Assembly (NCBI GenBank): GCA_014526335.1
Contig: JACTAT010000014.1
Location: 3,659,340 to 3,723,339, forward strand
DNA length: 64,000 bases
Source: Chrysaora quinquecirrha
Lineage: Eukaryota; Cnidaria; Scyphozoa; Semaeostomeae; Pelagiidae
Reading direction: 5' to 3'
Shown one piece after another: positions 6,201 through 59,200 of this stretch. The translations under genes were made by a program, and so were the position numbers. The notes beneath the pieces were generated by a model. That model was not told the origin of the DNA. It was given only the letters and a program-made list of their open reading frames with translations, and ran no database searches. Within the stretch, counting starts at the first letter, position 1. The number at the start of each line of letters is the position of its first letter.

Positions 6201-8576
6201 TTCAAACTTGACTGACTGTAAGATCGTTCAGGGTTATCTTTTAAACTCGTAGTATATGCTGAGGACAAGGATGGACTAAATGCATTGTGGCTGAGTTGAC
6301 TGAAATGCACAGCAGAGAACTGACGATTTTCACTGTTGCTTAGAAGATTCTTGCATAATTTGTATTCGGAGTAATGCTTTGATCTGAGAAAGAAAAAAAG
6401 GGTTAATCCTGGTTTCTACGTCGTCGTAAGCGATTGGGACGTGTCTCCATCGTGTCCCCAACGTGACGGCGATGTTCATGTTCCCATATAATCGTAAGTG
6501 ACGAGAACGCGTCACCATGTGTCCCCGACGTGAGGGGGATGTTCATGTTCCCATATAATCGTATGCGACGGGAACGCGTCCCCATCGTGTCCCGGACCAG
6601 ACGGCGATGTTCACTTTCCCATAGAATCGTACGCGACGGGAAGGCGTCTCCATCGTGTCCCCGACCTGACGGCGATGTTCACGTTCCCATAGAATCGTAA
6701 GCGACGGGAGATGACGGGGACACACAGGAAAATCCTAAAAAAGTTGTTGATTTTACACGCAGCAATACATTATATTATCTTTACCCACCTCAGAAAAAAT
6801 GGAAGTCTGTTTGTTTTACACCAATCAATAAGAGTTTTGCTGTCGTCATATCTACTGGATTTTTTATCTGCTGAAGCTGATTTAGAACTAGTTGTTAAAA
6901 CACACATGAGCTGTGTATCTTCATCGTATTCAAGCTTTTTGTGAATGCCTGCAAAAACAAAGTAGCACTTTATAAGAACAAATGATATTCAAATTTTAAG
7001 ACTATCCACAAGGATGAAACTTGAACATTAGAATCTGTGCACTGTGCCAAATTATAAGAGCTTTAAATAATGCAAGCAAGCAAGCAAACAATTAAGCTGG
7101 TGAGTGCAAGCAGGGACAAGCCTGGGGGCTGGCTAGCCAGTGTTTGTGGGCACTTCACAGCTGATGTGAACATGCAGCTTGTGTCCCAGTACTGGTACTC
7201 AGTCTAGAACCTATTTCCCTTGATACTCATTTGCCAACATTTTTAGAGCTGGACAACTAAGCAGACAGTAGGCTTCACCCCCTTGACTAATCAACATCAA
7301 TTAGCCAACACTGTACCTCTTGATGATGAAAAAACTCCTTGATTATTGACAGAAATTTTTGAAGTGGGTGTGGCATCAGATACCCATTTTTTTGCCTGCA
7401 CATTTGCATATTTTTCTCAGTGCAGGCAGCTGGTCTGACACTGTCAAGCACAAGGCAAACCAATGGAAACTAAACTTTAAAACTAAAATTCAAAGAATTA
7501 GAATTTTTAAACAGTTCTATTGAGCCACTAAGTTAATATCTATGCCAACAAAGCAATAGAGAAAGCCTTCTTTTCATTCTTGCTGGCAACATGCACAATA
7601 CAGCTCATAAATCATGCAACTGTAGATATGAAACTTAACATTGTTATGGATAATCAACTTGCTTCCAGAACATCACAACATGATTTCATTTATATCTGAC
7701 TGCTATTGCACAGCCAATATTATCATAAATGTTTAATGTGAGTGAAGAATGTGTGAAAAATAACAGAGCAACCAGCAAGCTCAAGATATAAGTAAAATTC
7801 CCCAAATCAGGAGCTAACTCCCCCAGCAGAGAATTTTGTTTCACAAGGTGCCAGTGAAAATAGTTACTTCTTTAGGTTCATTTCAGGGTTGTCCTTCAAA
7901 TTTTCAATGAAAGCATGCCTATTGATTCTCTTTGACGACCCAAGGCACAGAGAGGGTTTAAGAGAGCTGTGACATACAGTTAAATTTAATGAAATACTTT
8001 TGCCTCTTGTAGGAGTATTTTGAGATCATGCTCTTGTTAAAGGGTAATAAATCAAATCATGCTCTTCTTATAGGGTCACGTTATGCTTTCTTTTCCTAGA
8101 CAAGTCAGCCCACTACCATGTTGGCCCACCCTTATCGGCCCCATGGACAAGTTGACCCACCACAATGTTGGCCAACAAGGTTATTTACTATGTGTTAGGA
8201 TATTGGGGGCTAACACCCCCAAACCCCTGCTGTAACAGTGCACATGTTTCAAATTTTTTATATCTTAGTGGGCCGACTTGTTAAACACGGACAGGCCGAC
8301 TTGTCTAAGACATGGTGGGTCGACTTTGTAATGGGCTGACTTGCCCTTTACCCATGTTATCACCCTGTTGCTAGATTCCCTGAGGCACATGTACACCATA
8401 TCCTGATAATATCATAGTTATCCTCCCCCAAGGACCAGTAACTTTTACCAAAGTTGTGAGGAAAGCATAGAGAAAAGCAAGGTGTACCTGCGATGTGAGG
8501 AAAGCATTGAAGTACTGGACAAACAATGGGTCCTTCTTCAAGTATTGTACAAAGGTACTAGCACTCAGTCTTCTTC
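279..8576 (-). CDS. RGS22: RGS22-like regulator of G-protein signalling protein (partial, 3' end off the left edge)
   Basis: Exons traced on the minus strand, in transcript order: 8488-8576, 7317-7395, 6789-6948, 6094-6383, 4567-4826, 3678-3868, 2900-2945, 2027-2163, 1498-1710, 279-356. All have GT..AG borders and the reading phase is consistent at every junction. The first exon found encodes FVQYLKKDPLFVQYFNAFL, like the N-terminal motif of RGS22. Later exons give LIDWCKTNRLPFFL, an RGS-like stretch (RFKSFLAETNGFLLLQFWLDA), then LKSYWLPRFLVH and FLQALRAERETGFPFTASL, in the same order as RGS22. The middle (4567-6383) is low-complexity and acidic (FEDDDDFEKQ). RGS22 is a multi-RGS-domain protein known mainly from testis and ciliated cells in vertebrates; that role is family knowledge. 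The start exon (needed with phase 1 above 8576) was not found, and a further phase-0 exon may lie between 7395 and 8488. Introns carry SINEs, MITEs and minisatellites. Confidence 0.75.
990..1165. mobile_element. short inverted-repeat element (MITE), CTAGACTTATTAC family
   Basis: The segment begins cctagacttattacc and ends gtaataagtctataagcg, so the ends are inverted copies. Related sequence occurs at about 46710-46915, at 51185-51335 and in part near 23055. It lies in an RGS22-like intron. No coding capacity was seen, and the boundaries are approximate. Confidence 0.5.
3115..3412. repeat. (GAT)n / (ATG)n trinucleotide array
   Basis: About 300 bp of imperfect GAT repeats with scattered ATT, GTT and GGC interruptions, inside an intron of the RGS22-like gene. 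Similar GAT arrays occur at 25037-25345, 39871-40199 and, in reverse complement, 54840-55022. Confidence 0.95.
4016..4258. repeat. dispersed repeat rich in AAACATTG/CAATGTTT
   Basis: Repeated words such as caaacattg, tcaagcaatgttt and gccaaacggtcaaac in both orientations. The same family appears at 45240-45295 with 45520-45570 (split by another element) and at 53020-53445. This is non-coding intronic sequence, and the ends are not sharply defined. Confidence 0.55.
4262..4495 (+). mobile_element. SINE family B copy with inverted 5' part
   Basis: 4330-4495 matches the family-B SINE: cgagtaactc region, gagctctgtagctcaatgg, a B-box-like ggttcaaatccc, then tgtggaaaaatctacc. 4262-4325 is an inverted copy of its first part, so the two halves can fold on each other. 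Other copies lie at 31622-31860 (minus), 49590-49785 (plus) and 50600-50815 (plus). The tRNA-like centre points to Pol III derivation; this is inference from the box motifs. Confidence 0.6.
4968..5135 (+). mobile_element. SINE family A copy
   Basis: Contains a tRNA-like T-arm/B box (cggggttcgagcccaagc), the conserved ggtagcgtcacagcc segment, a gattagttaaactactactgag block and a CACCTT-type simple tail. Matching copies lie at 29488-29630, 29648-29815, 43856-43960 (minus) and 59805-59940 (minus, diverged). The copy is intronic. Confidence 0.7.
5621..6010. mobile_element. MITE with ~40-bp terminal inverted repeats
   Basis: The left end reads gggggttacttcattgttca followed by actagacgtgccgccca. 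The right end is its near-perfect reverse complement, tgggcggcacgtctag followed by gaacaatggaagcaaccccc. About 390 bp long, AT-rich inside, with no ORF. It lies in the RGS22-like intron between exons 4567-4826 and 6094-6383. No clear target duplication could be read, and the superfamily is not assigned. Confidence 0.8.
6410..6712. repeat. 68-bp minisatellite, about 4.5 units, GC-rich
   Basis: The word aatcgta(a/t/c)g(t/c)gacg recurs at about 6490, 6557, 6625 and 6693, a period near 68 bp. Units contain cgtgtccc, gacggcgatgttca and gttcccata. It is clearly more CpG-rich than its surroundings and lies in an RGS22-like intron just beyond the exon that ends at 6383. Confidence 0.9.
7072..7290 (-). 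mobile_element. SINE family C copy (reverse orientation)
   Basis: Starts with a GCAA tetranucleotide run (aagcaagcaagcaaac), followed by the reverse complement of the family-C body seen at 34770-35165: cttgtgtcccagtactgg ... agtctagaacctatttccc ... tactcatttgccaac. It lies in an RGS22-like intron. The tRNA-like head appears lost or diverged. Confidence 0.55.
8097..8346. mobile_element. MITE with palindromic GGCCCAC/GTGGGCC ends
   Basis: The left part (ctagacaagtcagcccac ... gttggcccaccc) and the right part (gtgggccgacttg ... atgggctgacttg) are imperfect inverted copies around a cattgggggctaacaccccc-like centre. A truncated relative lies at 57604-57770 with the same attgggggctaccacccc core. 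Confidence 0.65.
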
Positions 8577-9666: not shown

Positions 9667-9823
9667 CTTGTACACAATGCCGACAGCGTCCGGAGCATCG
9701 GGAACATTAGCCATGTTGACAGGCAGAGCATCCATGTATGACCTATGGAGAGGATTGAAATCTTCAAACGGATTGAAATTTCTGAATATAGCAGTATAGT
9801 TGTAGTCACTTGTACTGAATCCA
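9667..9823 (-). pseudogene. exon-like coding fragment spanning the outer edge of the left palindrome arm
   Basis: Read on the minus strand, an attcag acceptor-like site is followed by an open frame (TSDYNYTAIFRNFNPFEDF, then NPLHRSYMDALP, then VNMANVPDAPDAVGIVYK) ending in TGA. Composition looks protein-like and GC content rises locally. The part up to MDALP lies inside the inverted-repeat arm; the rest is unique flank. I do not recognise the family. The plus strand is also open here (MPTASGASGTLAMLTG from 9677, behind a tttgttttacag acceptor), so strand is uncertain and this could be chance. Confidence 0.3.
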
Positions 9824-9910
9824 TGTACACATACGAGTATCTAGTAGTATATATACATAGGATACATAGTATATACTGATGTGGCCTGCAACTGCCTGCA
9901 ACTGCTGTTC

Positions 9911-12560
9911 CAACAGATGTCTTCTTGAATATGGTGTATATAGTGTATATAGAGTATATATAAGTATATGGACGTATATACCCGTATATAGTGACCCAAC
10001 CTATGCTCTCACAGATGTCTTCTTGAATATGGTGTATATAGTGTATATAGAGTATATATAAGTATATGAATGTATATACCCGTATATAGTGACCCAACCT
10101 ATGCTCTCACAGATGTCTTCTTGAATATGGTGTATATAGTGTATATAGAGTATATATAAGTATATGAATGTATATACCCGTATATAGTGACCCAACCTAT
10201 GCTCTCACAGATGTCTTCTTGAATATGGTGTATATAGTGTATATAGAGTATATATAAGTATATGGACGTATATACCCGTATATAGTGACCCAACCTATGC
10301 TCTCACAGATGTCTTCTTGAATATGGTGTATATAGTGTATATAGAGTATATATAAGTATATGGATGTATATACCCGTATATAGTGACCCAACCTATGCTC
10401 TCACAGATGTCTTCTTGAATATGGTGTATATAGTGTATATAGAGTATATATAAGTATATGGACGTATATACCCGTATATAGTGACCCAACCTATGCTCTC
10501 ACAGATGTCTTCTTGAATATGGTGTATATAGTGTATATAGAGTATATATAAGTATATGAATGTATATACCCGTATATAGTGACCCAACCTATGCTCTCAC
10601 AGATGTCTTCTTGAATATGGTGTATATAGTGTATATAGAGTATATATAAGTATATGGACGTATATACCCGTATATAGTGACCCAACCTATGCTCTCACAG
10701 ATGTCTTCTTGAATATGGTGTATATAGTGTATATAGAGTATATATAAGTATATGAATGTATATACCCGTATATAGTGACCCAACCTATGCTCTCACAGAT
10801 GTCTTCTTGAATAGGGTGTATATAGTGTATATAGAGTATATATAAGTATATGGACGTATATACCCGTATATAGTGACCCAACCTATGCTCTCACAGATGT
10901 CTTCTTTAATATGGTGTATATAGTGTATATAGAGTATATATAAGTATATGGACGTATATACCCGTATATAGTGACCCAACCTATGCTCTCACAGATGTCT
11001 TCTTGAATATGGTGTATATAGTGTATATAGAGTATATATAAGTATATGAATGTATATACCCGTATATAGTGACCCAACCTATGCTCTCACAGATGTCTTC
11101 TTGAATATGGTGTATATAGTGTATATAGAGTATATATAAGTATATGGACGTATATACCCGTATATAGTGACCCAACCTATGCTCTCACAGATGTCTTCTT
11201 GAATATGGTGTATATAGTGTATATAGAGTATATATAAGTATATGAATGTATATACCCGTATATAGTGACCCAACCTATGCTCTCACAGATGTCTTCTTGA
11301 ATATGGTGTATATAGTGTATATAGAGTATATATAAGTATATGGACGTATATACCCGTATATAGTGACCCAACCTATGCTCTCACAGATGTCTTCTTGAAT
11401 ATGGTGTATATAGCGTATATAGAGTATATATAAGTATATGGACGTATATACCCGTATATAGTAGCCCAACCTATGCTCTCACAGATGTCTTCTTTAATAT
11501 GGTGTATATAGTGTATATAGAGTATATATAAGTATATGGACGTATATACCCGTATATAGTGACCCAACCTATGCTCTCACAGATGTCTTCTTGAATATGG
11601 TGTATATAGTGTATATAGAGTATATATAAGTATATGGACGTATATACCCGTATATAGTGACCCAACCTATGCTCTCACAGATGTCTTCTTGAATATGGTG
11701 TATATAGTGTATATAGAGTATATATAAGTATATGGACGTATATACCCGTATATAGTGACCCAACCTATGCTCTCACAGATGTCTTCTTGAATATAGTGTA
11801 TATAGTGTATATAGAGTATATATAAGTATATGGACGTATATACCCGTATATAGTGACCCAACCTATGCTCTCACAGATGTCTTCTTGAATATGGTGTATA
11901 TAGTGTATATAGAGTATATATAAGTATATGAATGTATATACCCGTATATAGTGACCCAACCTATGCTCTCACAGATGTCTTCTTGAATAGGGTGTATATA
12001 GTGTATATAGAGTATATATAAGTATATGGACGTATATACCCGTATATAGTGACCCAACCTATGCTCTCACAGATGTCTTCTTGAATATGGTGTATATAGT
12101 GTATATAGAGTATATATAAGTATATGGACGTATATACCCGTATATAGTGACCCAACCTATGCTCTCACAGATGTCTTCTTGAATATGGTGTATATAGTGT
12201 ATATAGAGTATATATAAGGATATGAATGTATATACCCGTATATAGTGACCAAACCTATGCTCTCACAGATGTCTTCTTGAATATAGTGTATATAGTGTAT
12301 ATAGAGTATATATAAGTATATGGACGTATATACCCGTATATAGTGACCCAACCTATGCTCTCACAGATGTCTTCTTTAATATGGTGTATATAGTGTATAT
12401 AGAGTATATATAAGTATATGGATGTATATACCCGTATATAGTTGCATATCCCATGCTCTCACAGATGTCTTCTTGAAAATTGTGTATATAGTGTATATAG
12501 AGTATGTATAAGTACATGGATGTATATACCCGTATATTGTGACCCAACCTATGCTACATA
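9911..12560. repeat. 98-bp satellite array, left arm (about 27 units)
   Basis: The period is exactly 98 bp over most of the array. Each unit contains agatgtcttcttgaatatgg, alternating TATA-rich blocks, a cccgtatatagtgacccaac segment and cctatgctctcac. Units fall into variants, chiefly atggacgtat versus atgaatgtat, plus ggtg/gggtg and tgaat/ttaat changes. The innermost units (12360-12560) are the most diverged. Because 98 is not a multiple of 3, the repeated ~64-codon frames seen across it are by-products of the repeat, not genes. Confidence 0.98.
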
Positions 12561-12582
12561 TTGTGACCCAACCAACCAAAAA

Positions 12583-13010
12583 ATAGATTTTGGGTCATTT
12601 TCCTATTTGGGGCTATATCTCATCGTCTTCTACGTATCAAAATGTGCATAACTGCAAATTTTCATATACATCTTATCATTTGTTACATTGTTATTGCAGT
12701 GTTCGTATTAGGGGGTCTAATAACTAATACCCCAATCTAAGAATAGATTTGGGGGCATTTTGCAATTGGGGCTATATCTCATCGTCTTTTACGTATCAAA
12801 ATGTGCATAAATGCAAATTTTCAATTTCATTTTACCATTTGTAACACATTTATTCCAACCTTAACATTATGGCGTGTTGATCTAAGTACCCCAGTCTAAA
12901 AATAGCATTTGGGGGCATTTTTCAGCTTTGGTCTATATCTCATCTTTTCAGCATGTTAAATTACCCTTGTGACCAATTTTCATGCTTTTATCACAAAGTG
13001 CGCAAGATTC
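12583..13010. repeat. ~160-bp direct repeat, three diverged copies (left arm)
   Basis: The words ggggctatatctcatcgtctt, acgtatcaaaatgtgcataa and gggggcattttgc recur at about 12592, 12751 and 12911. The mirrored set lies at about 15680-16110 in the right arm. Confidence 0.85.
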
Positions 13011-13031
13011 ATTTTTCAGGCTGCTAAGCTT

Positions 13032-13298
13032 CTACACTATTGAAATGCATGTTTCTCTATATTTGATCTTGTTGTAAATATTCGTTCGTATCGACAACCA
13101 CTTTAGAAACTGACAACTGAAATCCCGAAAATCCCCCATAGTGTTTAGAAAATCGCAAATATACCCCGAAATATAGTAGCCATCAAACCAAACAAATGAA
13201 TGAATCTCACTTATTCTAAAAGAATCTTTCGCTAAAACCGAATCGTTTCGCAACAAATTTACTATCGTTGCAGAAAAATTATGATGTTGCTGCTCCAA
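13032..13298 (-). other. 88-codon open frame in the left palindrome arm
   Basis: Open frame beginning MEQQHHNFSATIVNLL and ending YRETCISIV, pointing outward from the loop. The right-arm copy (15392-15658, plus) encodes exactly the same 88 residues. No recognised domain, no signal peptide, and many aromatic residues. Identity between arms may reflect recent duplication or gene conversion rather than selection, so coding status is unproven. Confidence 0.25.
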
Positions 13299-13654
13299 TT
13301 TTAACTAATATGCAGAAAATCGCTTTGGCATCCGGTTATGATTCAGAAAGAGTATGCTGCCTTTTTTCATCCATGGCAGGGCATCTTTGACTGCTCGGGC
13401 AAAACTTTCAAAGGGCCCATGCCTTCTAACTATGCAAATATGATTCCCGTGAGCTTATTCTCCTGACACAGGGCATATTTTAAGGATATTTCTCAAGACC
13501 ACTAGCGTTTTTGCGCCAAAGTCGCACAGCGCACTGGAGGTTTGTTTATCAAGGGGGCTCAGGGGGCATGCTCCCCCAGAAAATTTTCCAAAATACCACC
13601 TGCAGATGGCCTTAGATTGGTGGTTTTTCTTAATAGTTTTCGGAAACTATGTTA

Positions 13655-14003
13655 CACTCATTTTTTTATAAGAAACCCATTTATAAGAAACTCAGTAATG
13701 GGATCAATATTGGTTAAGAACTTTCAGTACTCGACCAAAAATGGTAAGAAACTTGCAGGTCTCAAGAATCTTTAGAATTAGAGATAAAGCATCGAGAAAA
13801 CAAACTTCTGTTGCACCATAAGTGTCTCGTGAATTGTATTTCTTCTTCTACTTGTAGAATTTAAGTGTCAATTGCCCGTTTTGGCACTTAGAAATTTTGA
13901 TTCTAAGAAACTGCTAAGAAACTTTCAGTATACCAAATTTGCCCCAAAACTAAGAAACTTTGAGTACTGACCAAAAATCTTAGTTTCTTATAAAAAAAGA
14001 GTA
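13655..14003. mobile_element. MITE of the CACTC..ATAAGAA family inside the palindrome loop
   Basis: The left end is cactcatttttttataagaa after TA, and the right end is ttcttataaaaaaagag followed by ta. TA flanks and CACTC termini suggest a Tc1/mariner-type non-autonomous element. Relatives lie at 29089-29439, 37252-37610, 48767-49116 and, less closely, 60297-60692, 61236-61577 and 63040-63405. Confidence 0.7.
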
Positions 14004-15102
14004 TATCAGAAATAACTTGAAACTTAACATCACCGTTTTGCTATCTTCACAAGAGGTTTTATGTTTTTTGAGAAAGAAAGACAGTAACACTTGTAGAATG
14101 AACAAGTTAAACTAGGTATTTTTGCTCAGAGCAACAAAATCATACCCCCAAAAATCTTGAAAAAAAAAAACTGGGTGGAGCTAAGGGGGTGAGCCTGCGG
14201 GTTCATCTGTTGTACTTGTACGTAACTCTATAAAAGAACACGGACAATTGGTAACTAAAAATATTGCTTCGCTTCAAAAGAAAAGTACACCCCACACTTT
14301 CAGATTTCCAAGACAACACTTTGGATTTCCAAGACCAAAAAGTGAGGGAAAAACACGCTAAAATATGCCCTACGAGAATGGTGCTTTTCGCCATTGATAT
14401 CGATTATCAACTGTTGCAAGTCAAAGAACTCAGTCTGAATGGATGTCTATTTACTTTACTGTACAGCGAAAACTGATAAACATTCTGATAATCAGTGAAA
14501 ACTTTTCTGCCTACTGTAATCTATGCGCATCATGCACCATCTTTCCAAAAATTGAATTACATTTTGATAATACCTATGTCAAAAGGGCCCATCACTGGTG
14601 GGGCAAAACCAGGATTTCAACGATCAGTGGTGGGGCAGCCGATGGGGCCTGGTGGGGCAATTACCCCACCACTCAGTATGTTAAAAGATGCCCTGAATTC
14701 CATGGCGTAATAAATTGATGCACCAAAAAGACAACGTAGCACCCCGTGAGGGGGGGGGGACTTCATTATTGTAATACATACTTGATGTTCCTAATGGACA
14801 TACAGTTGAAATTCATTGTTGTCTATGTTTGTTTACTATTATATCCATATGTTATACTCTATAATATATACTTGATGTTCTTTATTGACGTCAAGTTGAA
14901 ATGTATTAAAAATTGGTAGGATGGAATTTCTACTTTCCCTAGACAATTCCCTACACAAAAATTGCTAAATTTGGTACCCTTGGCTAGACCAATATTGTAA
15001 AAAAGTATGTCCTTGGCTAGACAAAAACAAATAAAAAATATACCCTCCAGCGCGGCACATTCAAAGGTACATTTACTATTGAGCATCCACCCCCACCCCC
15101 CT
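14004..15102. other. remainder of the palindrome loop, no gene seen
   Basis: Contains an A-run plus a G-rich tract near 14158-14190, a tggtggggca-rich patch at 14595-14690 with internal inverted copies, a G10 run near 14750, and similar words (acttgatgttc ... ttgaaat) at 14782 and 14871. Small open frames are present but none resembles a known protein. Confidence 0.5.
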
Positions 15103-15391
15103 AAAATTTTCTGGGGGAGCATGCCCCCTGAGCCCCCTTGATAAACAAACCTCCAGTGCCCTGTGCGACTTTGGCGCAAAAACACTAGTGGTCTTGAGAA
15201 ATATCCTTAAAATATGCCCTGTGTCAGGAGAATAAGTTCATGGGAATCATATTTGCATAGTTAGAAGGCATGGGCCCTTTGAAATTTTTGCCCGAGCAGT
15301 CAAAGATGCCCTGCCATGGATGAAAAAAGGCAGCATACTCTTTCTGAATCATAACCGGATGCCAAAGCGATTTTCTGCATATTAGTTAAAA

Positions 15392-15658
15392 TTGGAGCAG
15401 CAACATCATAATTTTTCTGCAACGATAGTAAATTTGTTGCGAAACGATTCGGTTTTAGCGAAAGATTCTTTTAGAATAAGTGAGATTCATTCATTTGTTT
15501 GGTTTGATGGCTACTATATTTCGGGGTATATTTGCGATTTTCTAAACACTATGGGGGATTTTCGGGATTTCAGTTGTCAGTTTCTAAAGTGGTTGTCGAT
15601 ACGAACGAATATTTACAACAAGATCAAATATAGAGAAACATGCATTTCAATAGTGTAG
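15392..15658 (+). other. 88-codon open frame in the right palindrome arm
   Basis: Exact protein-level duplicate of the minus-strand frame at 13032-13298, in mirror orientation. The same caution applies: an open frame conserved between arms, but without recognised family, splice context or promoter evidence. Confidence 0.25.
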
Positions 15659-16127
15659 AAGCTTAGAAGCCTGAAAAATGAATCTTGCGCACTTTGTGAT
15701 AAAAGCATGAAAATTGGTCACAAGGGTAATTTAACATGCTGAAAAGATGAGATGTAGACCCAAGCTGAAAAATGCCCCCAAATGATATTTTTAGACTGGG
15801 GTACTTAGATCAACACGCCATAATGTTAAGGTTGGAATAAATGTGTTACAAATGGAAAAATGAAATTGAAAATTTGCATTTATGCACATTTTGATACGTA
15901 AAAGACGATGAGATATAGCCCCAATTGCAAAATGCCCCCAAATCTATTCTTAGATTGGGGTATTAGTTATTAGACCCCCTAATACGAACACTGCAATAAC
16001 AATGTAACAAATGATAAGATGTATATGAAAATTTGCAGTTATGCACATTTTGATACGTAGAAGACGATGAGATATAGCCCCAAATAGGAAAATGACCCAA
16101 AATCTATTTTTTGGTTGGTTGGGTCAC

Positions 16128-19100
16128 AATATGTAGCATAGGTTGGGTCACAATATACGGGTATATACATCCATATACTTATATATACTCTATATACACT
16201 ATATACACCATATTAAAGAAGACATCTGTGAGAGCATAGTTTGGGCCACTATATACGGGTATATACGTCCATATACTTATATATACTCTATATACGCTAT
16301 ATACACCATATTCAAGAAGACATCTGTGAGAGCATAGGTTGGGTCACTATATACGGGTATATACGTCCATATACTTATATATACTCTATATACACTATAT
16401 ACACCATATTAAAGAAGACATCTGTGAGAGCATAGGTTGGGTCACTATATACGGGTATATACGTCCATATACTTATATATACTCTATATACACTATATAC
16501 ACCCTATTCAAGAAGACATCTGTGAGAGCATAGGTTGGGTCACTATATACGGGTATATACGTCCATATACTTATATATACTCTATATACACTATATACAC
16601 CCTATTCAAGAAGACATCTGTGAGAGCATAGGTTGGGTCACTATATACGGGTATATACATTCATATACTTATATATACTCTATATACACTATATACACCA
16701 TATTCAAGAAGACATCTGTGAGAGCATAGGTTGGGTCACTATATACGGGTATATACGTCCATATACTTATATATACTCTATATACACTATATACACCATA
16801 TTCAAGAAGACATCTGTGAGAGCATAGGTTGGGTCACTATATACGGGTATATACATCCATATACTTATATATACTCTATATACACTATATACACCATATT
16901 CAAGAAGACATCTGTGAGAGCATAGGTTGGGTCACTATATACGGGTATATACGTCCATATACTTATATATACTCTATATACACTATATACACCATATTCA
17001 AGAAGACATCTGTGAGAGCATAGGTTGGGTCACTATATACGGGTATATACATTCATATACTTATATATACTCTATATACACTATATACACCATATTCAAG
17101 AAGACATCTGTGAGAGCATAGGTTGGGTCACTATATACGGGTATATACGTCCATATACTTATATATACTCTATATACACTATATACACCATATTCAAGAA
17201 GACATCTGTGAGAGCATAGGTTGGGTCACTATATACGGGTATATACGTCCATATACTTATATATACTCTATATACACTATACACACCATATTCAAGAAGA
17301 CATCTGTGAGAGCATAGGTTGGGTCACTATATACGGGTATATACATTCATATACTTATATATACTCTATATACACTATATACACCATATTCAAGAAGACA
17401 TCTGTGAGAGCATAGGTTGGGTCACTATATACGGGTATATACGTCCATATACTTATATATACTCTATATACACTATATACACTATATTCAAGAAGACATC
17501 TGTGAGAGCATAGGTTGGGTCACTATATACGGGTATATACGTCCATATACTTATATATACTCTATATACACTATATACACCATATTCAAGAAGACATCTG
17601 TGAGAGCATAGGTTGGGTCACTATATACGGGTATATACGTCCATATACTTATATATACTCTATATACACTATATACACCCTATTCAAGAAGACATCTGTG
17701 AGAGCATAGGTTGGGTCACTATATACGGGTATATACATTCATATACTTATATATACTCTATATACACTATATACACCATATTCAAGAAGACATCTGTGAG
17801 AGCATAGGTTGGGTCACTATATACGGGTATATACGTCCATATACTTATATATACTCTATATACACTATATACACCATATTCAAGAAGACATCTGTGAGAG
17901 CATAGGTTGGGTCACTATATACGGGTATATACGTCCATATACTTATATATACTCTATATACACTATATACACCCTATTCAAGAAGACATCTGTGAGAGCA
18001 TAGGTTGGGTCACTATATACGGGTATATACATTCATATACTTATATATACTCTATATACACTATATACACCATATTCAAGAAGACATCTGTGAGAGCATA
18101 GGTTGGGTCACTATATACGGGTATATACATTCATATACTTATATATACTCTATATACACTATATACACCATATTCAAGAAGACATCTGTGAGAGCATAGG
18201 TTGGGTCACTATATACGGGTATATACATTCATATACTTATATATACTCTATATACACTATATACACCATATTCAAGAAGACATCTGTGAGAGCATAGGTT
18301 GGGTCACTATATACGGGTATATACGTCCATATACTTATATATACTCTATATACACTATACACACCCTATTCAAGAAGACATCTGTGAGAGCATAGGTTGG
18401 GTCACTATATACGGGTATATACATTCATATACTTATATATACTCTATATACACTATATACACCATATTCAAGAAGACATCTGTGAGAGCATAGGTTGGGT
18501 CACTATATACGGGTATATACGTCCATATACTTATATATACTCTATATACACTATATACACCATATTCAAGAAGACATCTGTGAGAGCATAGGTTGGGTCA
18601 CTATATACGGGTATATACGTCCATATACTTATATATACTCTATATACACTATATACACCATATTCAAGAAGACATCTGTGAGAGCATAGGTTGGGTCACT
18701 ATATACGGGTATATACGTCCATATACTTATATATACTCTATATACACTATATACACCCTATTCAAGAAGACATCTGTGAGAGCATAGGTTGGGTCACTAT
18801 ATACGGGTATAAACATTCATATACTTATATATACTCTATATACACTATATACACCCTATTCAAGAAGACATCTGTGAGAGCATAGGTTGGGTCACTATAT
18901 ACGGGTATATACGTCCATATACTTATATATACTCTATATACACTATATACACCATATTCAAGAAGACATCTGTGAGAGCATAGGTTGGGTCACTATATAC
19001 GGGTATATACGTCCATATACTTATATATACTCTATATACACTATATACACCCTATTCAAGAAGACATCTGTGAGAGCATAGGTTGGGTCACTATATACGG

Positions 19101-20100
19101 GTATATATACACTCTATATACACTATATACACCATATTCAAGAAGACATCTGTGAGAGCATAGGTTGGGTCACCATATACATTCATATACTTATATATAC
19201 TCTAAGAAGACATCTGTGAGAGCATAGGTTGGGTCACTATATACGGGTATATACATTCATATACTTATATATACTCTATATACACTATATACACCATATT
19301 CAAGAAGACATCTGTGAGAGCATAGGTTGGGTCACTATATACGGGTATATACGTCCATATACTTATATATACTCTATATACACTATATACACCATATTCA
19401 AGAAGACATCTGTGAGAGCATAGGTTGGGTCACTATATACGGGTATATACGTCCATATACTTATATATACTCTATATACACTATATACACCATATTCAAG
19501 AAGACATCTGTGAGAGCATAGGTTGGGTCACTATATACGGGTATATACGTCCATATACTTATATATACTCTATATACACTATATACACCCTATTCAAGAA
19601 GACATCTGTGAGAGCATAGGTTGGGTCACTATATACGGGTATATACATTCATATACTTATATATACTCTATATACACTATATACACCATATTCAAGAAGA
19701 CATCTGTGAGAGCATAGGTTGGGTCACTATATACGGGTATATACGTCCATATACTTATATATACTCTATATACACTATATACACCATATTCAAGAAGACA
19801 TCTGTGAGAGCATAGGTTGGGTCACTATATACGGGTATATACGTCCATATACTTATATATACTCTATATACACTATATACACCATATTCAAGAAGACATC
19901 TGTGAGAGCATAGGTTGGGTCACTATATACGGGTATATACATCCATATACTTATATATACTCTATATACACTATATACACCATATTAAAGAAGACATCTG
20001 TGAGAGCATAGGTTGGGTCACTATATACGGGTATATACATTCATATACTTATATATACTCTATATACACTATATACACCATATTCAAGAAGACATCTGTT
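16128..20100. repeat. 98-bp satellite array, right arm (about 40 units, inverted)
   Basis: Reverse-complement orientation of the left array, with the same variants. It is longer by roughly 13-14 units. Shortened or rearranged units occur at 19090-19215, where two units lose internal TATA blocks. A partial unit recurs just outside the array at 20140-20170. Confidence 0.98.
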
Positions 20101-20204
20101 GGAACAGCAGTTGCAGGCAGTTGCAGGCCACATCATATACACTATATACTATTCAAGAAGACATCTGTTGGATCCTATGTATATATACTATGTAGATACT
20201 CGTA

Positions 20205-20350
20205 TGTGTACATGGATTCAGTACAAGTGACTACAACTATACTGCTATATTCAGAAATTTCAATCCGTTTGAAGATTTCAATCCTCTCCATAGGTCATAC
20301 ATGGATGCTCTGCCGATTGATTTGGAAACAGCAGGAAGGAGATTGAAATG
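20205..20350 (+). pseudogene. exon-like fragment crossing the outer edge of the right palindrome arm
   Basis: Mirror copy of the 9667-9823 fragment: the same TSDYNYTAIFRNF ... SYMDALP frame read on the plus strand. Outside the arm it continues into different sequence, IDLETAGRRLKCYAFSRIF, and ends at TAA. Which flank is the original context cannot be decided here. Family not recognised. Confidence 0.25.
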
Positions 20351-21350: not shown

Positions 21351-21368
21351 AGAAGCTGATCATATAAG

Positions 21369-22832
<1,464 letters not shown>

Positions 22833-26815: not shown

Positions 26816-27972
26816 GATTCTATTTAATGGGACAGCCCACTTTAAAACTAGCACCTATACTGAAGGGTTACCAAACCGATGGCACCCCAGGACATAATCA
26901 ATAGAAGTGAGGTCCTCTTTCCTATTGACTCTGCCAAGGACAATGAACAAAATTGAAAACGACCTGAGCAACGGACGAACTGAAAATAGCATTGAGCAAT
27001 AACTGAACTGAAATGACCATATAGCTTCACAAGAACGTGAAGGTGGAGCAATTTAGAGGTTAAGGTCTATGCAAAGAGGTGGTCAGAGACGGGTATGGGC
27101 TAGTCGTTAACGAATATTAAATTGTCAGTCTTTAATCTTCCTGATCTGCAGTTTAAACAAGCTAAGAAAGTATATTTATTAAGCAGCGTAGGTGCGGGAA
27201 AAGTGCACGTCGTTACTGAAATGCCGGAATGTCCGTTGGCATCCGTGATTCGCATAATTTTAAGCAAAAGCGAAGAACTGAGTGTGCGACGCACTACCAG
27301 TCACACTTGCGTCGAGTATCAATAATAATAAAACAGAACTGATTGTGACTAAGTATGTATCGTATGAAGGGCGCTCCCTAGTTTGAATGTATGTATTTAT
27401 GTATATATGCTCGCTTAGATCCACGTCTTATCAACTGGATGCAACATCGTTTTTTCAAATCGGCTAAAAAATTGAATCACATTCGCAGAATGAAAGTAGC
27501 TTTATTACGAATCCCTCCGAATTTCCCGAAACGTTTCTAGAAAAAACATTCCCCTTTCACAACAGAAACTTGAAAAATTCAACCTGACATCGGCGGGCAC
27601 CAAGGCTATTGACAAAAAAATTACAAGGAGGAACAACGAAGAGGCGCAAGAGAAGAAACAAAAAATGAAGATGCATTTTTTCGTGCCAATATTTCGGACT
27701 GGCATACAGTCGTTTCTCGCGGGAAATGAAACTGTTTGAAAATCATTGATTTGAAACAGATTTTCCACTTGATTTGTTTTTCTTAGACAAATAGGCTTAT
27801 CAATGTTGTGGTTCCAGGATCCCTTGGTCTTGTTCTTTTTTAAAAAAAACCACAACAACGCACAAAAAGTGATTTTTTAATAAAATAAGCTCAAGTTTTT
27901 GTGCTTGCTCCAGACAAGGCAACCACTTTCACAACTTTCTCACTGCGTCATTTCTGAAAATTCGTTACCGAA
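26816..27972. other. intergenic stretch upstream of the acetyltransferase gene
   Basis: No exon supported. 27330-27640 is the TATG-led dispersed repeat noted at 21978. The acetyltransferase promoter presumably lies within 27800-27972, which holds A/T runs and ends cgttaccgaaATGG. No TATA box is convincing. Confidence 0.4.
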
Positions 27973-29009
27973 ATGGAAGGCATACGTTGCAGGAAAGCGA
28001 AGATTACCGACCAACCCTATATAGATGAAATATCTCGGGGTTTGTATTTTGGCACGGATTATACACCAAAGATATTCCCAAAGTGGTTGGCTGATGAAAA
28101 CTGGCAACTCTTCGTGGCAGAAACAGCCTTAGGCAACGTAGTAGGGTTCACAGCATTGCACATCATAGACAGCAGAACGAGTGTTGTTGTCCGCAGTTCA
28201 AGGGTAGCAGAGTCGCATCGTGGCAAGGGAATTTACACCTTCATGCTGGATTATGCCTTGTTCTCGATTCAACAGAAGTTTAGCAGTGTTCGAACCGTCA
28301 TCCGTCAGCGACTAACCGAATATAAAGTTCCAACAGGATATCAGTCTATGATGAAGTATGCGTTCACCCTCGTTCATCTGGATCCAAGCACAGTCTGTTG
28401 TAATGGCAAAAATGAATCTTCGTCGGAGAATGAGAATCCGAACCTCAATATGGCCATTCTTAAACCAACTGGCTATACTTCGCAACCTGTCATCGTTCGC
28501 GAAATTTTCTCCACTGTTTGGTCAAACAAACTGTGGGTGAGAGAGCTGTTCCCTAATAATATAATCAACATTGGGCACTATTTCTTTAATGCTGGCAACT
28601 TGGAATCCAAGAAACTCCTTGACATGCGAGATGACCTGCTCATTCACGTTTCTGAAGATGGGGACAGCAAAGTTTTGTCCATCGTCGATTTATCTTACAA
28701 GGAAACCGTCTCAGGAGTCAGTTTTTCACGCTAGATCTTTATGGTAATGATATCTACATAATCAAGAGCCACACCCTCAAAGCCGTTGACATCATATCGA
28801 GGCAAGTAAATGGGGCATTTGATCTGTTCGTTAACTTACATTCAAAGGAGGCTGAGGAGATGGTTGTGTTTTTCCAGCAATCGAAAAACTGTGAAATTGT
28901 AGTAAAAGGGTTATTCTTGCAGGTTTTAACAATAGATATAAACCAGCATCCTTATAAATATAAACCACATGAGCTGAATAACAATAATGACGTAGAAAAC
29001 GTTAAGTAG
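27973..29009 (+). CDS. NAT16 / histidine N-acetyltransferase-like protein, intronless, with one frameshift
   Basis: The first frame (27973-28734) runs 253 codons from ATG (context cgaaATGG). It starts as a GNAT fold: IRCRKAKITDQPYIDEIS, GLYFGTDYTPKIFPKWL, VAETALGNVVGFTALHI, then an acetyl-CoA loop RVAESHRGKGIYTFML. Its last four codons (SFSR) and stop do not fit, but from 28719 the other frame continues the family-like C-terminus (QFFTLDLYGNDIYIIKSHTL, AFDLFVNLHSKEAEEMVVFF) to TAG at 29007. One missing base between 28716 and 28720 explains this. Joined length would be about 345 residues, normal for NAT16/histidine-acetyltransferase relatives. Those enzymes acetylate free amino acids such as histidine; the substrate here is unknown. 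Whether this is an assembly error, an allele or a pseudogene cannot be told from the sequence. Confidence 0.75.
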
Positions 29010-56210: not shown

Positions 56211-59200
56211 ATGACAACTGGAATCTCTACAAACGCTGATTTGGGAGTGGATACACAGCCCTTTAACGGAACAGAAGTGGTATGGGTTTAAATATCTTTT
56301 ATTTCTTGACATAGTGAGAAGAAAAACAGACCATAAACATCCGTAGCCCAGCCCTTGGCGACGGCCTGTGTGATTACAAAACCTTTTGTTGCCTACTAAA
56401 AATACTTCAAACAGGTTTAACAGAAAAAGAAATTCTAGATAGTTTTTATCTTGTACGAATTTCAAAACTATCTATTTCACTTCAATCAAATCTAAACACT
56501 TTCTAATTAGTCAAAAACTTTGTTGTTATGGTTAGTTTTCACAACGCTCCGTCTCTACCACAAGATCAGCTAGAATTTCCGAATTAGTTCGTTAGTTCGT
56601 GTTAGGAATCAAAATCTGTGCTCTTGATCAGGAATAAGAAAAGAAAACTGTCAGACCACAAGCCCATTCATACTAACTGTAAACAAGCAGGGAAATTTGC
56701 ACTTTTTAGGCTACTTTGCTTTTGTCCGACATTGCCAACAGGTGGCAAGCGAGTTTGTTTACCATGACGATTTTTCTCAGAGGCTAATTTTCTTCCCTGA
56801 CTCTTAAATGTGCACTTAAGCTCTCATTATTCGCTAATTTCAAAATGTCTGTTATATTTGTTAAATCGAATGATTTATTTCACAATAAATTACCACCCAA
56901 TTGAGTTACCAATCTCTGCTGATCTCCCAGACATACCAGAAATTATTTACTGTTTTTAATCAATTTTATCTTTATTTTACAGCTTTTAGTTTCTTGACTT
57001 AACTGCTTTGCAAAATATCTAATCGCCTACAATTTCAATCACTGGGCTGTAGGAAATGTCATTTTGACAATTTGTGGGAAAATTTTGAACAATTTTGATT
57101 ATAATGATTTAAACTAAGTTAATTTTGTGTGTTTTAAAGGACAATATTATTTTTGGAAAAATACATTTCCCTTTCTCGATATTGTACTATTTCAAATTGC
57201 TATCATTTTAGAAAAATGCAGAGCTCACCAAAATTTCTTCATTTCATCAAAAAGTAAAAAGATATTCAACCTAAAAACATAATAATTTTTTAACCACCAG
57301 CCATAAAAACAGCAAAACTATATTATTTTTGCTGTTTCTTGGGAATATTTCTCAGCAAGTGTTTTGTTTGAGACAATGATTCATGTCTTCTGGTTTTGTT
57401 ATCACAGTTATGTTGTGAAGGCTTAACCACAAACTTAAGTATAAATAATTTTTGCTTTGTTTACAAAAACCATCTCAGGATTGCTTTCTGGAGAGGCATG
57501 GATCTAAGCACTTCATTCCAGTTTCCAAATAATTGAACAATTAAACAATTGGTCTAAAATTGTGTAAATATCCAAACAACAAATAATTTTTGATACCAGG
57601 AATAAGTGGGCCCACTTTCTAGACAAGTTGGCTCACTGTGAAGTTGGCCCACTACTATGTCTTCCAACCTCCATGGACAAGTAAGCCCACTGGAGTGGTG
57701 GCCCACAACATTATTTACTAGTTATTTTGTTATGTGTGGAGGTATTGGGGGCTACCACCCCTGTCAACCACAACAAAAGGCCAAACAACATAAAAATGAT
57801 AGCATTGTTAGCCATATCTTGGTTCCAGTAAGTTAAGACTTCATGAATTTCACAGATTTACCGAAATAACCGTTATTCAATTTAAAGCTATTTAAATAGG
57901 ATGCTGGTCATAAGCCATAGTAAAGGGCATGTTTTCCCTGAGGTTCTGTTCTCCTCATTTTTTTTCACTTTTTAGCCCCAACATATCAATAAATTGCTCT
58001 GCTTTCCTATTATAGTTCTGATGTTACACTTATCCATTCTAGTGTACAGCAATTTTTGCAGGACAGAAAACTCTGTGTGTTTCATAGATTCTCAAACAAA
58101 GAAAAAACCTAACTAGCAGCAAAAATAGCCATAACTTTATATCATCAACCACAAATACCAACATGGGGATGGTTGAGGGTGTGTCACAAATTTTGATTGC
58201 AATATAGTTTGTCTCCTAACGTTTTAGAACAGCACCCTGTGTAGCACAGTAGAATTTCAGTAGTTTTTTGCTCAAAGTAGAATTCTAAGTCTACAAATTC
58301 ATTTTACTGTTATTTTTTAGAGTTTTCATGATTTATTAATTATAATTTTTGTTTTTTTTTTCAGGGTACTGGTGTGCTCACAGCTGAAGGGGCCTTGAGC
58401 ATTGGTGCTCCTGTGTTCACTGATACCAGGTATGTGGTCCTATACTTCTGTCAGATAAGAAACAAAATTTATAAATCTTCTCAAAGTTTTACCCCTTAAC
58501 CATTTGTCGAGTTTGTCAATGTCTTTCCCAAGGTGAATATGCCTTTACCATAAACTTTGCTGTTTATTAGACTCTGGTATTGGCTAATGTCTATGGTTGT
58601 TCAAACAATGGAAATCTTTCAATCAAACCAATTTATTCTTTGTTTTTAGTTCAATGAATCCTGTGGCTGTAGCAAAGTCACAGGACAGCCAGCCTGAAAG
58701 ATGGAAGACCAACAACATTGAAATTCCCACTTCAACAATGCAGCTTGAGCTGTCACCTGGCTTCATTAGCCCAGAGCCTATATATTACGTGACCCAAGAG
58801 TTTGTGAATGGCTTTGTCAGTCCCATCACACTGACAAATGGTGAGGGCATTCAGTTTCAGCAAGGGAATATCCCTGAACCATCAAGTCCGATGAATGGTA
58901 ATGGTGATGCATCATCAAGCCAAGCAGAGCCCAGCAGCCCAGAGGAATTGAAAGCACTAATTTGTCATCAATTTGAGTATTACTTCTCCAGGGAAAATCT
59001 TGCTAATGATGCTTATCTTGGTAAGTGATCAGTTCTTTTCTCATTTCCACAACTACTACCTTGTTTAATTCAGAATCTTTTACATCTTTTTCATTAGCAA
59101 ACTAACTAACTTAGGACAACATTTATTAGATCACCCAAAGTGTGCGGAAAATTACAATGAGGGTTGTTTTAGAATAATTGGCAGGGCTAGATCGTCATTT

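Follow-up and report, generated by a model that had tools for sequence, protein, structure and literature searches.

A probable foldback-type DNA transposon family with tandem-repeat arms in the jellyfish Chrysaora quinquecirrha

Results

We analysed a stretch of 64,000 nucleotides (the window; contig JACTAT010000014.1, positions 3,659,340 to 3,723,339) from the Chrysaora quinquecirrha assembly GCA_014526335.1 (328 Mb, 740 contigs), which was also the source of all loci compared. A palindrome proposed from the letters of the window proved to be real: its inverted repeat was recovered by computation, and its edges coincide with terminal motifs (tips) that recur at 16 further loci (Table 1). The main inverted repeat pairs 9899-13587 with 15103-18791 over 3689 nt at 98% complementarity, and the loop, predicted at about 1.5 kb, measured 1515 nt. 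Outside the palindrome, the window contains a 68-bp minisatellite of 4.2 copies at 6424-6709 and, to the right of the element, LITAF-like zinc ribbon and La-domain gene pieces (21360-21758 and 58588-59025) together with a GNAT acetyltransferase frame (27958-28731).

Table 1. Features of the palindrome and its flanks, in window coordinates. Periods and copy numbers of the tandem arrays are from Tandem Repeats Finder.
Feature	Position	Strand	Remarks
Left 8-bp flank	9714..9721	.	TGTTGACA; no match on the right
Whole foldback-type element	9722..20314	.	10,593 bp; A tips (GGCAGAG) at both ends
Left end block	9722..9910	+	189 bp; A tip GGCAGAGCATCC; 31 matches in its own genome
Left 98-bp tandem array	9913..12555	+	27.0 copies, 97% matches
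Left inner domain	12556..12950	+	159-bp repeat, 2.3 copies; among the 17 loci, matched in the window and C467a copies only
Left inner arm	12951..13587	+	Holds the 90-codon minus-strand frame
Loop	13588..15102	.	1515 bp; whole, inverted, 99% in C467a
MITE-like insert	13655..14003	.	Limits approximate; inverted ends around TTTTTTTATAAGAAAC, TA context; also in C467a
Right inner arm	15103..15739	-	Inner parts of the two arms 99.0% identical
Right inner domain	15740..16134	-	With the 159-bp repeat
Right 98-bp tandem array	16135..20099	-	About 40 units, one of them shortened; 30.3 and 9.1 copies in two rows, 97-98%
Right end block	20102..20314	-	A tip; 213 bp, 24 bp longer than the left block
Right 8-bp flank	20315..20322	.	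GATTGATT; no target duplication

The original prediction described two mirrored, near-identical arms. They are indeed inverted and complementary to the extent given above, and their inner parts share 99.0% identity across 1032 bp, but they are not of equal size (3866 versus 5212 bp), because the left array has 27 units and the right one about 40. A piece of the right end block, at about 20135-20168, resembles the 98-bp unit. The inner repeat, described as threefold with a unit of about 160 bp, comprised only 2.3 copies. An 88-codon frame noted in the arms fits a stop-to-stop frame of 90 codons (13035-13304, minus strand); a Pfam search gave it no match at E values up to 1, so it is probably not coding. 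The MITE reported in the loop was found as a MITE-like insert with an 81% relative elsewhere (L041:6632-7012). The absence of a target duplication at this copy was also confirmed, the two 8-bp flanks being different; other copies do have one.

The palindrome belongs to a family dispersed over 17 loci of the assembly, the window copy included. Matches to the end block were for the most part inverted pairs. We searched the whole assembly with a 21-base tip pattern, allowing up to three mismatches and taking the reversed pattern as a control, and obtained 45 matches: 28 exact, two with one mismatch, and 15 with two or three (a single two-mismatch match at C115:116579 and fourteen three-mismatch matches). 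All 30 matches with zero or one mismatch sit at the 17 loci, and the reversed control gave two matches. At this stringency, the assembly-wide pattern search revealed no further locus that might be an autonomous partner. Both tips, in inverted order, were present at 13 out of 17 loci, bounding elements of 2,485 to 16,067 bp. The arms follow one plan, a 189-bp end followed by a 98-bp array of variable length. In the 11 main-family copies that have two tips, uninterrupted arm arrays comprise between 7 and 102 units; C1a and C467b each have a left array that is broken. The copies share the boundaries of the window palindrome, a point that the original prediction had proposed to check, with the tip sequence at the edge of all 25 aligned main-family ends. 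A transposase, which had not been visible in the window copy, was found neither there nor in any other copy as a component of the family itself.

Several copies depart from this plan. C374 and C376 lie at near-identical loci, with left flanks that are 98% identical, and each holds a diverged family member (76% identical in C374); judged by sequence, they look like one insertion held twice. The one frame scanned in C374 had no Pfam match. At the left tip of C376, 15 extra bases resemble a tip remnant and are perhaps a trace of excision or re-insertion. C420 is a 2.5-kb copy that has no core, its inverted arrays nearly touching, and has kept an exact 8-bp duplication. C424 lies inside a 112-bp tandem satellite, with many units on its left and one matched on its right. 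For C429, no second tip was found within about 26 kb downstream of its tip with up to five mismatches allowed, and within C1c the element passes into a run of N, possibly an assembly gap.

Target duplications, for which the original prediction had proposed to look in other copies, were exact and 8 bp long in 7 out of 13 two-tip copies (C246, C257, C313, C399, C420, C467a and C467b), with a chance expectation of about 2e-5 per copy. As a control, none of 156 cross-pairings of flanks matched; in this set, the right ends of C374 and C376 were entered 4 bp off. With tips placed by pattern and flanks read by hand, 7 out of 8 positions matched for C374 and 5 out of 8 for C376. C1a, C1b and the window copy had no target duplication, and the flanks of C424 look, at best, like a decayed one. 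For the window copy, a search of the assembly with the joined flanks returned no empty site, each flank occurring only at its own place, and the flanking 8-mers identified no reciprocal exchange partner. Among the 8-bp flanks of all one-ended or duplication-less copies, the sole reciprocal pairing was a 7/8 match between C1a and C424. We took this match for chance and did not retain it as a reciprocal product, C424 lying in satellite and having flanks that themselves resemble a decayed duplication.

These results bear on whether a transposon is present at all. The arms are mostly 98-bp satellite, as they would be if a satellite array had simply been duplicated in inverted orientation. Such an origin is contradicted by boundaries that recur at 17 loci and by the 8-bp target duplications, and we regard it as wholly improbable. 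Nor did the 98-bp repeat occur as a plain satellite lacking mirrored ends among the matches listed of 402 (39 out of 47 candidates scored). The foldback-type reading offered in the original prediction is borne out by the long inverted arms of tandem sub-repeats, the dispersed and bounded copies, and the duplications at 7 out of 13 of them. The palindrome is thus very probably one member of a foldback-type family of cut-and-paste DNA transposons, apparently non-autonomous, and the window copy is probably a rearranged one.

We aligned 25 main-family ends, omitting those of the diverged C374, C376 and C429 and the tipless left end of C224. Twelve ends start with GGCAGAG (A) and 13 with GGCTGAC (B). 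Columns 4 and 7 separate A from B in 25 out of 25 ends, and none of the other columns among the 190 does so. The two ends within a copy were 1.1-4.7% apart in ten copies, the lowest value, equal to two positions, being that of C1a and C424; the window copy reached 14.4% because of an insert. Between copies, ends differed on average by 4.5% when they had the same tip and by 5.7% when they had the other tip, where both means include the window right end with its insert and the A-B mean includes both tip columns. Sharing or homogenisation of the ends thus extends to roughly the last 8 bp. The 11 main-family copies with two tips comprise nine A/B copies, the window copy, which is A/A, and C1b, which is B/B. 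Both same-tip copies are without a duplication: an exact duplication was absent from 2 out of 2 same-tip copies versus 2 out of 9 A/B copies (a one-sided Fisher test calculated by hand gives 6/55 = 0.11). The unlike tips could be explained by selection for heterotypic pairs, as a functional left/right code bounding the satellite-bearing arms, but we think this rather doubtful. The difference may instead reflect conversion that fails beside unrelated flanks.

Five copies (C313, C1b, C424, C257 and C467b) have a common core of 3.3-3.6 kb, whose frame is at most 295 codons long. In the two core frames scanned, we detected the hAT C-terminal dimerisation domain (PF05699, E values of 6e-10 and 9e-10). 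The hAT protein also occurs at no fewer than seven other places at 93-97% identity, in several of them with its parts further apart (135 out of 1294 candidates scored). Three of the 19 matches to relatives of the hAT piece carry a species name, and all three are cnidarian. Comparison of C202, C91 and C222 delimited a separate hAT element with CAGGGGCG-type tips (C202 being L042, and the hAT family L042, L043 and L044). At two of these loci it stands free with its own duplication: C202 (L042:3444-6083), of 2640 bp with the duplication TACTTTCA, and C222, of 2302 bp with the duplication CATGTAAC. C91 is a hAT copy with no duplication. A stretch of TATAC repeats flanks the C202 element on either side, and the two stretches give inverted matches.

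In the foldback cores, a deleted version of this hAT element, of about 1.04 kb, lies between its own tips and has the duplication CCAGAAGC in 4 out of 5 cores. In C257, the left tip is present and similarity reaches to 3 bp from the right tip, which the pattern did not find. Three of the five hAT-bearing copies have differing foldback duplications (AGATGCTC, AGGGTCCT and AAAACGAT). The foldback moved as a unit after the hAT insert had hit it, as is shown by the presence of one nested insert at five sites, three of them with different foldback duplications. The window copy and C467a likewise have their loop and its MITE-like insert in common.

It follows that the hAT frame is silent on the transposase of the foldback itself. 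hAT elements make 8-bp target duplications. A family that belonged to the hAT superfamily, with the hAT piece as its own, would accordingly fit the duplication length, which the free hAT copies share, and the hAT frame in five cores. However, the frame belongs to a nested element that has tips and, in 4 out of 5 cores, also a duplication of its own, the same element stands free at two loci, and the foldback tips begin with GGC. We consider this assignment unlikely and dropped the PF05699 match as a basis for membership. Mobilisation of the foldback in trans by some other hAT element is possible.

The order of core and tips varies among copies. C313, C424, C257, C399, C246 and C467a have the standard B-core-A order, and the core is flipped relative to the A and B tips in C467b, with an intact duplication, and in C1a. 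Exchange between the inverted arms would flip the core and thereby explains the presence of both orientations. The extent of the inverted part also differs. In the C313 core, the one hAT-bearing core examined, there was no inverted repeat beyond 27 nt at 70-72%. A further 1.03 kb is inverted in the window copy and C467a, and about 0.56-0.84 kb of other sequence in C399, C246 and C1a. The inverted part has thus grown inward.

We compared 650 out of 703 extracted array units, namely those of exactly 98 bp with no N; further partial units were dropped. Units were nearer between a copy's own arms than to other copies in 7 out of 12 copies (C1a, C1b, C313, C399, C420, C467a and the window). In C224, C246, C257, C424 and C467b, the left-right distance was not clearly below the distance to other copies. 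For 155 out of 617 units, the nearest unit outside the unit's own arm was in the opposite arm, where numbers alone would give 25. Unit distances were 2.6% between the window copy and C467a, 2.6% within C467a and 2.3% within the window copy; common sub-family ancestry explains part of the likeness between arms. No homogenisation was seen in the inner arms of these two copies. With the effect clear in seven copies only, homogenisation between arms as a general rule was unsupported.

The inner arms of the window copy and C467a also help to place the tip switch of the window copy. Among 15 variable columns, 11 are singletons; the 4 informative ones all link the left arm of the window copy to the right arm of C467a (the B side), and its right arm to the left arm of C467a (the A side). 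The crosswise pairs differ at 4 and 7 positions, respectively, and the opposite pairs at 11 (left/left) and 8 (right/right), with 10 and 9 differences within a copy; by total differences, the window-right arm is thus hardly nearer to C467a-left (7) than to C467a-right (8). On the informative columns, therefore, the window core is in standard order even though its left tip is A. This puts the tip switch farther out than the inner arm, and the left 98-bp array is its simplest location. If another copy had recombined with the window copy in that array, replacing the left end by an A end, this would account for both the two A tips and the missing duplication.

An assembly misjoin of two copies inside the near-identical 98-bp arrays would produce the same picture. 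Over kilobases the arrays are 97% identical, the variants in the inner arms point to a switch farther out, and the C1c copy meets its run of N inside the element. Against this, the switched arm, with 27 units and 2.8 kb including the end block, would be short for long reads, if the assembly was built from such reads, and the joined-flank search placed each flank only at its own site. We judge a misjoin to be a real contender but somewhat the poorer side of an even bet. The window copy is probably a rearranged copy whose left end was replaced.

Discussion

The copies suggest how the family may work. Insertion made an 8-bp target duplication, and the element moved together with its nested insert. 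A transposase supplied in trans would recognise the tips. The 98-bp repeats may serve as extra transposase binding sites, by analogy with Galileo. The arrays would lengthen and shorten through unequal exchange, and recombination of the inverted arms would flip the core and now and then join halves of two copies.

Tetris, a foldback element of Drosophila virilis, is described with a terminal domain, a variable array of repeats of about 220 bp, and inner and middle domains (PMC4079207), an architecture like that of the present family. Its description likewise reports no transposase, and gives duplications of 8-10 bp, compared with 8 bp here (PMC4079207). Repeats cluster within the copy in two of three complete copies of Tetris (PMC4079207); the present family has 13 two-tip copies. 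The repeat length is unlike the 98 bp found here, the two families being compared by description only, and Tetris repeats are reported to form large free satellite arrays (PMC4079207), of which there were none here among the matches listed.

Galileo, a P-superfamily element of Drosophila, is similar in its long tandem-repeat arms and inward arm extension, in having chimeric copies with no matching duplications, and in having middle segments in either direction (PMC3573991, PMC2775673, PMC3688188). Galileo duplications are given as 7 bp (PMC3573991), whereas those here are 8 bp and so do not fit Galileo. Galileo also has a P-type transposase (PMC3573991, PMC2775673, PMC3688188); in the copies studied here, no transposase of their own was found. 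Inversions are described as arising from ectopic recombination between Galileo copies (PMC2775673), and experiments with its THAP domains are reported to show the repeats as extra binding sites (PMC3688188).

The third relative, Tm1, is a Mutator/Phantom foldback of the nematode Meloidogyne with two unlike 7-bp outer tips, usually one per end, outside its tandem-repeat arms (PMC3169594). One Tm1 copy is reported with the same tip at both ends (PMC3169594), as in the window copy (A/A) and C1b (B/B). Tm1 differs in its repeats of about 14 bp, its mostly 9-bp duplications and the MULE transposase in one element (PMC3169594). A further difference is that in the present family the tips form part of the inverted repeat, with just two positions setting A and B apart. 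Similar unlike tips are said to occur in other Mutator-like elements (PMC3169594, Discussion), and MULE duplications are reported to range over 8-11 bp (PMC6446971). A Mutator-like, Phantom-type transposase may therefore mobilise the family, as in Tm1. All seven exact duplications are 8 bp and none is longer, by contrast with the 9 bp usual in Tm1 (PMC3169594), and no MULE protein was encountered; we hold this source of mobility to be credible without thinking it the probable one.

The family described here is a new one of a known kind: set beside them by their descriptions, Tetris, Galileo and Tm1 show nearly all of its features. The architecture, the variable arrays, the chimeras with no duplication, the inward growth of the arms and the unlike tips are each described in one or other of these accounts. 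The titles and opening parts of abstracts in the open-licence literature gave no account of this family or of any cnidarian foldback family.

Foldback elements have been proposed as seeds of satellite DNA (Tetris) and are reported as demonstrated drivers of inversions (Galileo). Here, one assembly provides a clean set of 11 two-tip copies from the main family, with varied arrays, flipped cores, same-tip copies and a nested insert in common. If there were a tip code, copies that lose it by recombination, such as the window copy (A/A) and C1b (B/B), should be immobile. With this set it can be tested whether crossovers take place in the arm arrays, and why A and B ends have kept their difference in the outermost 7 bp but not farther in.
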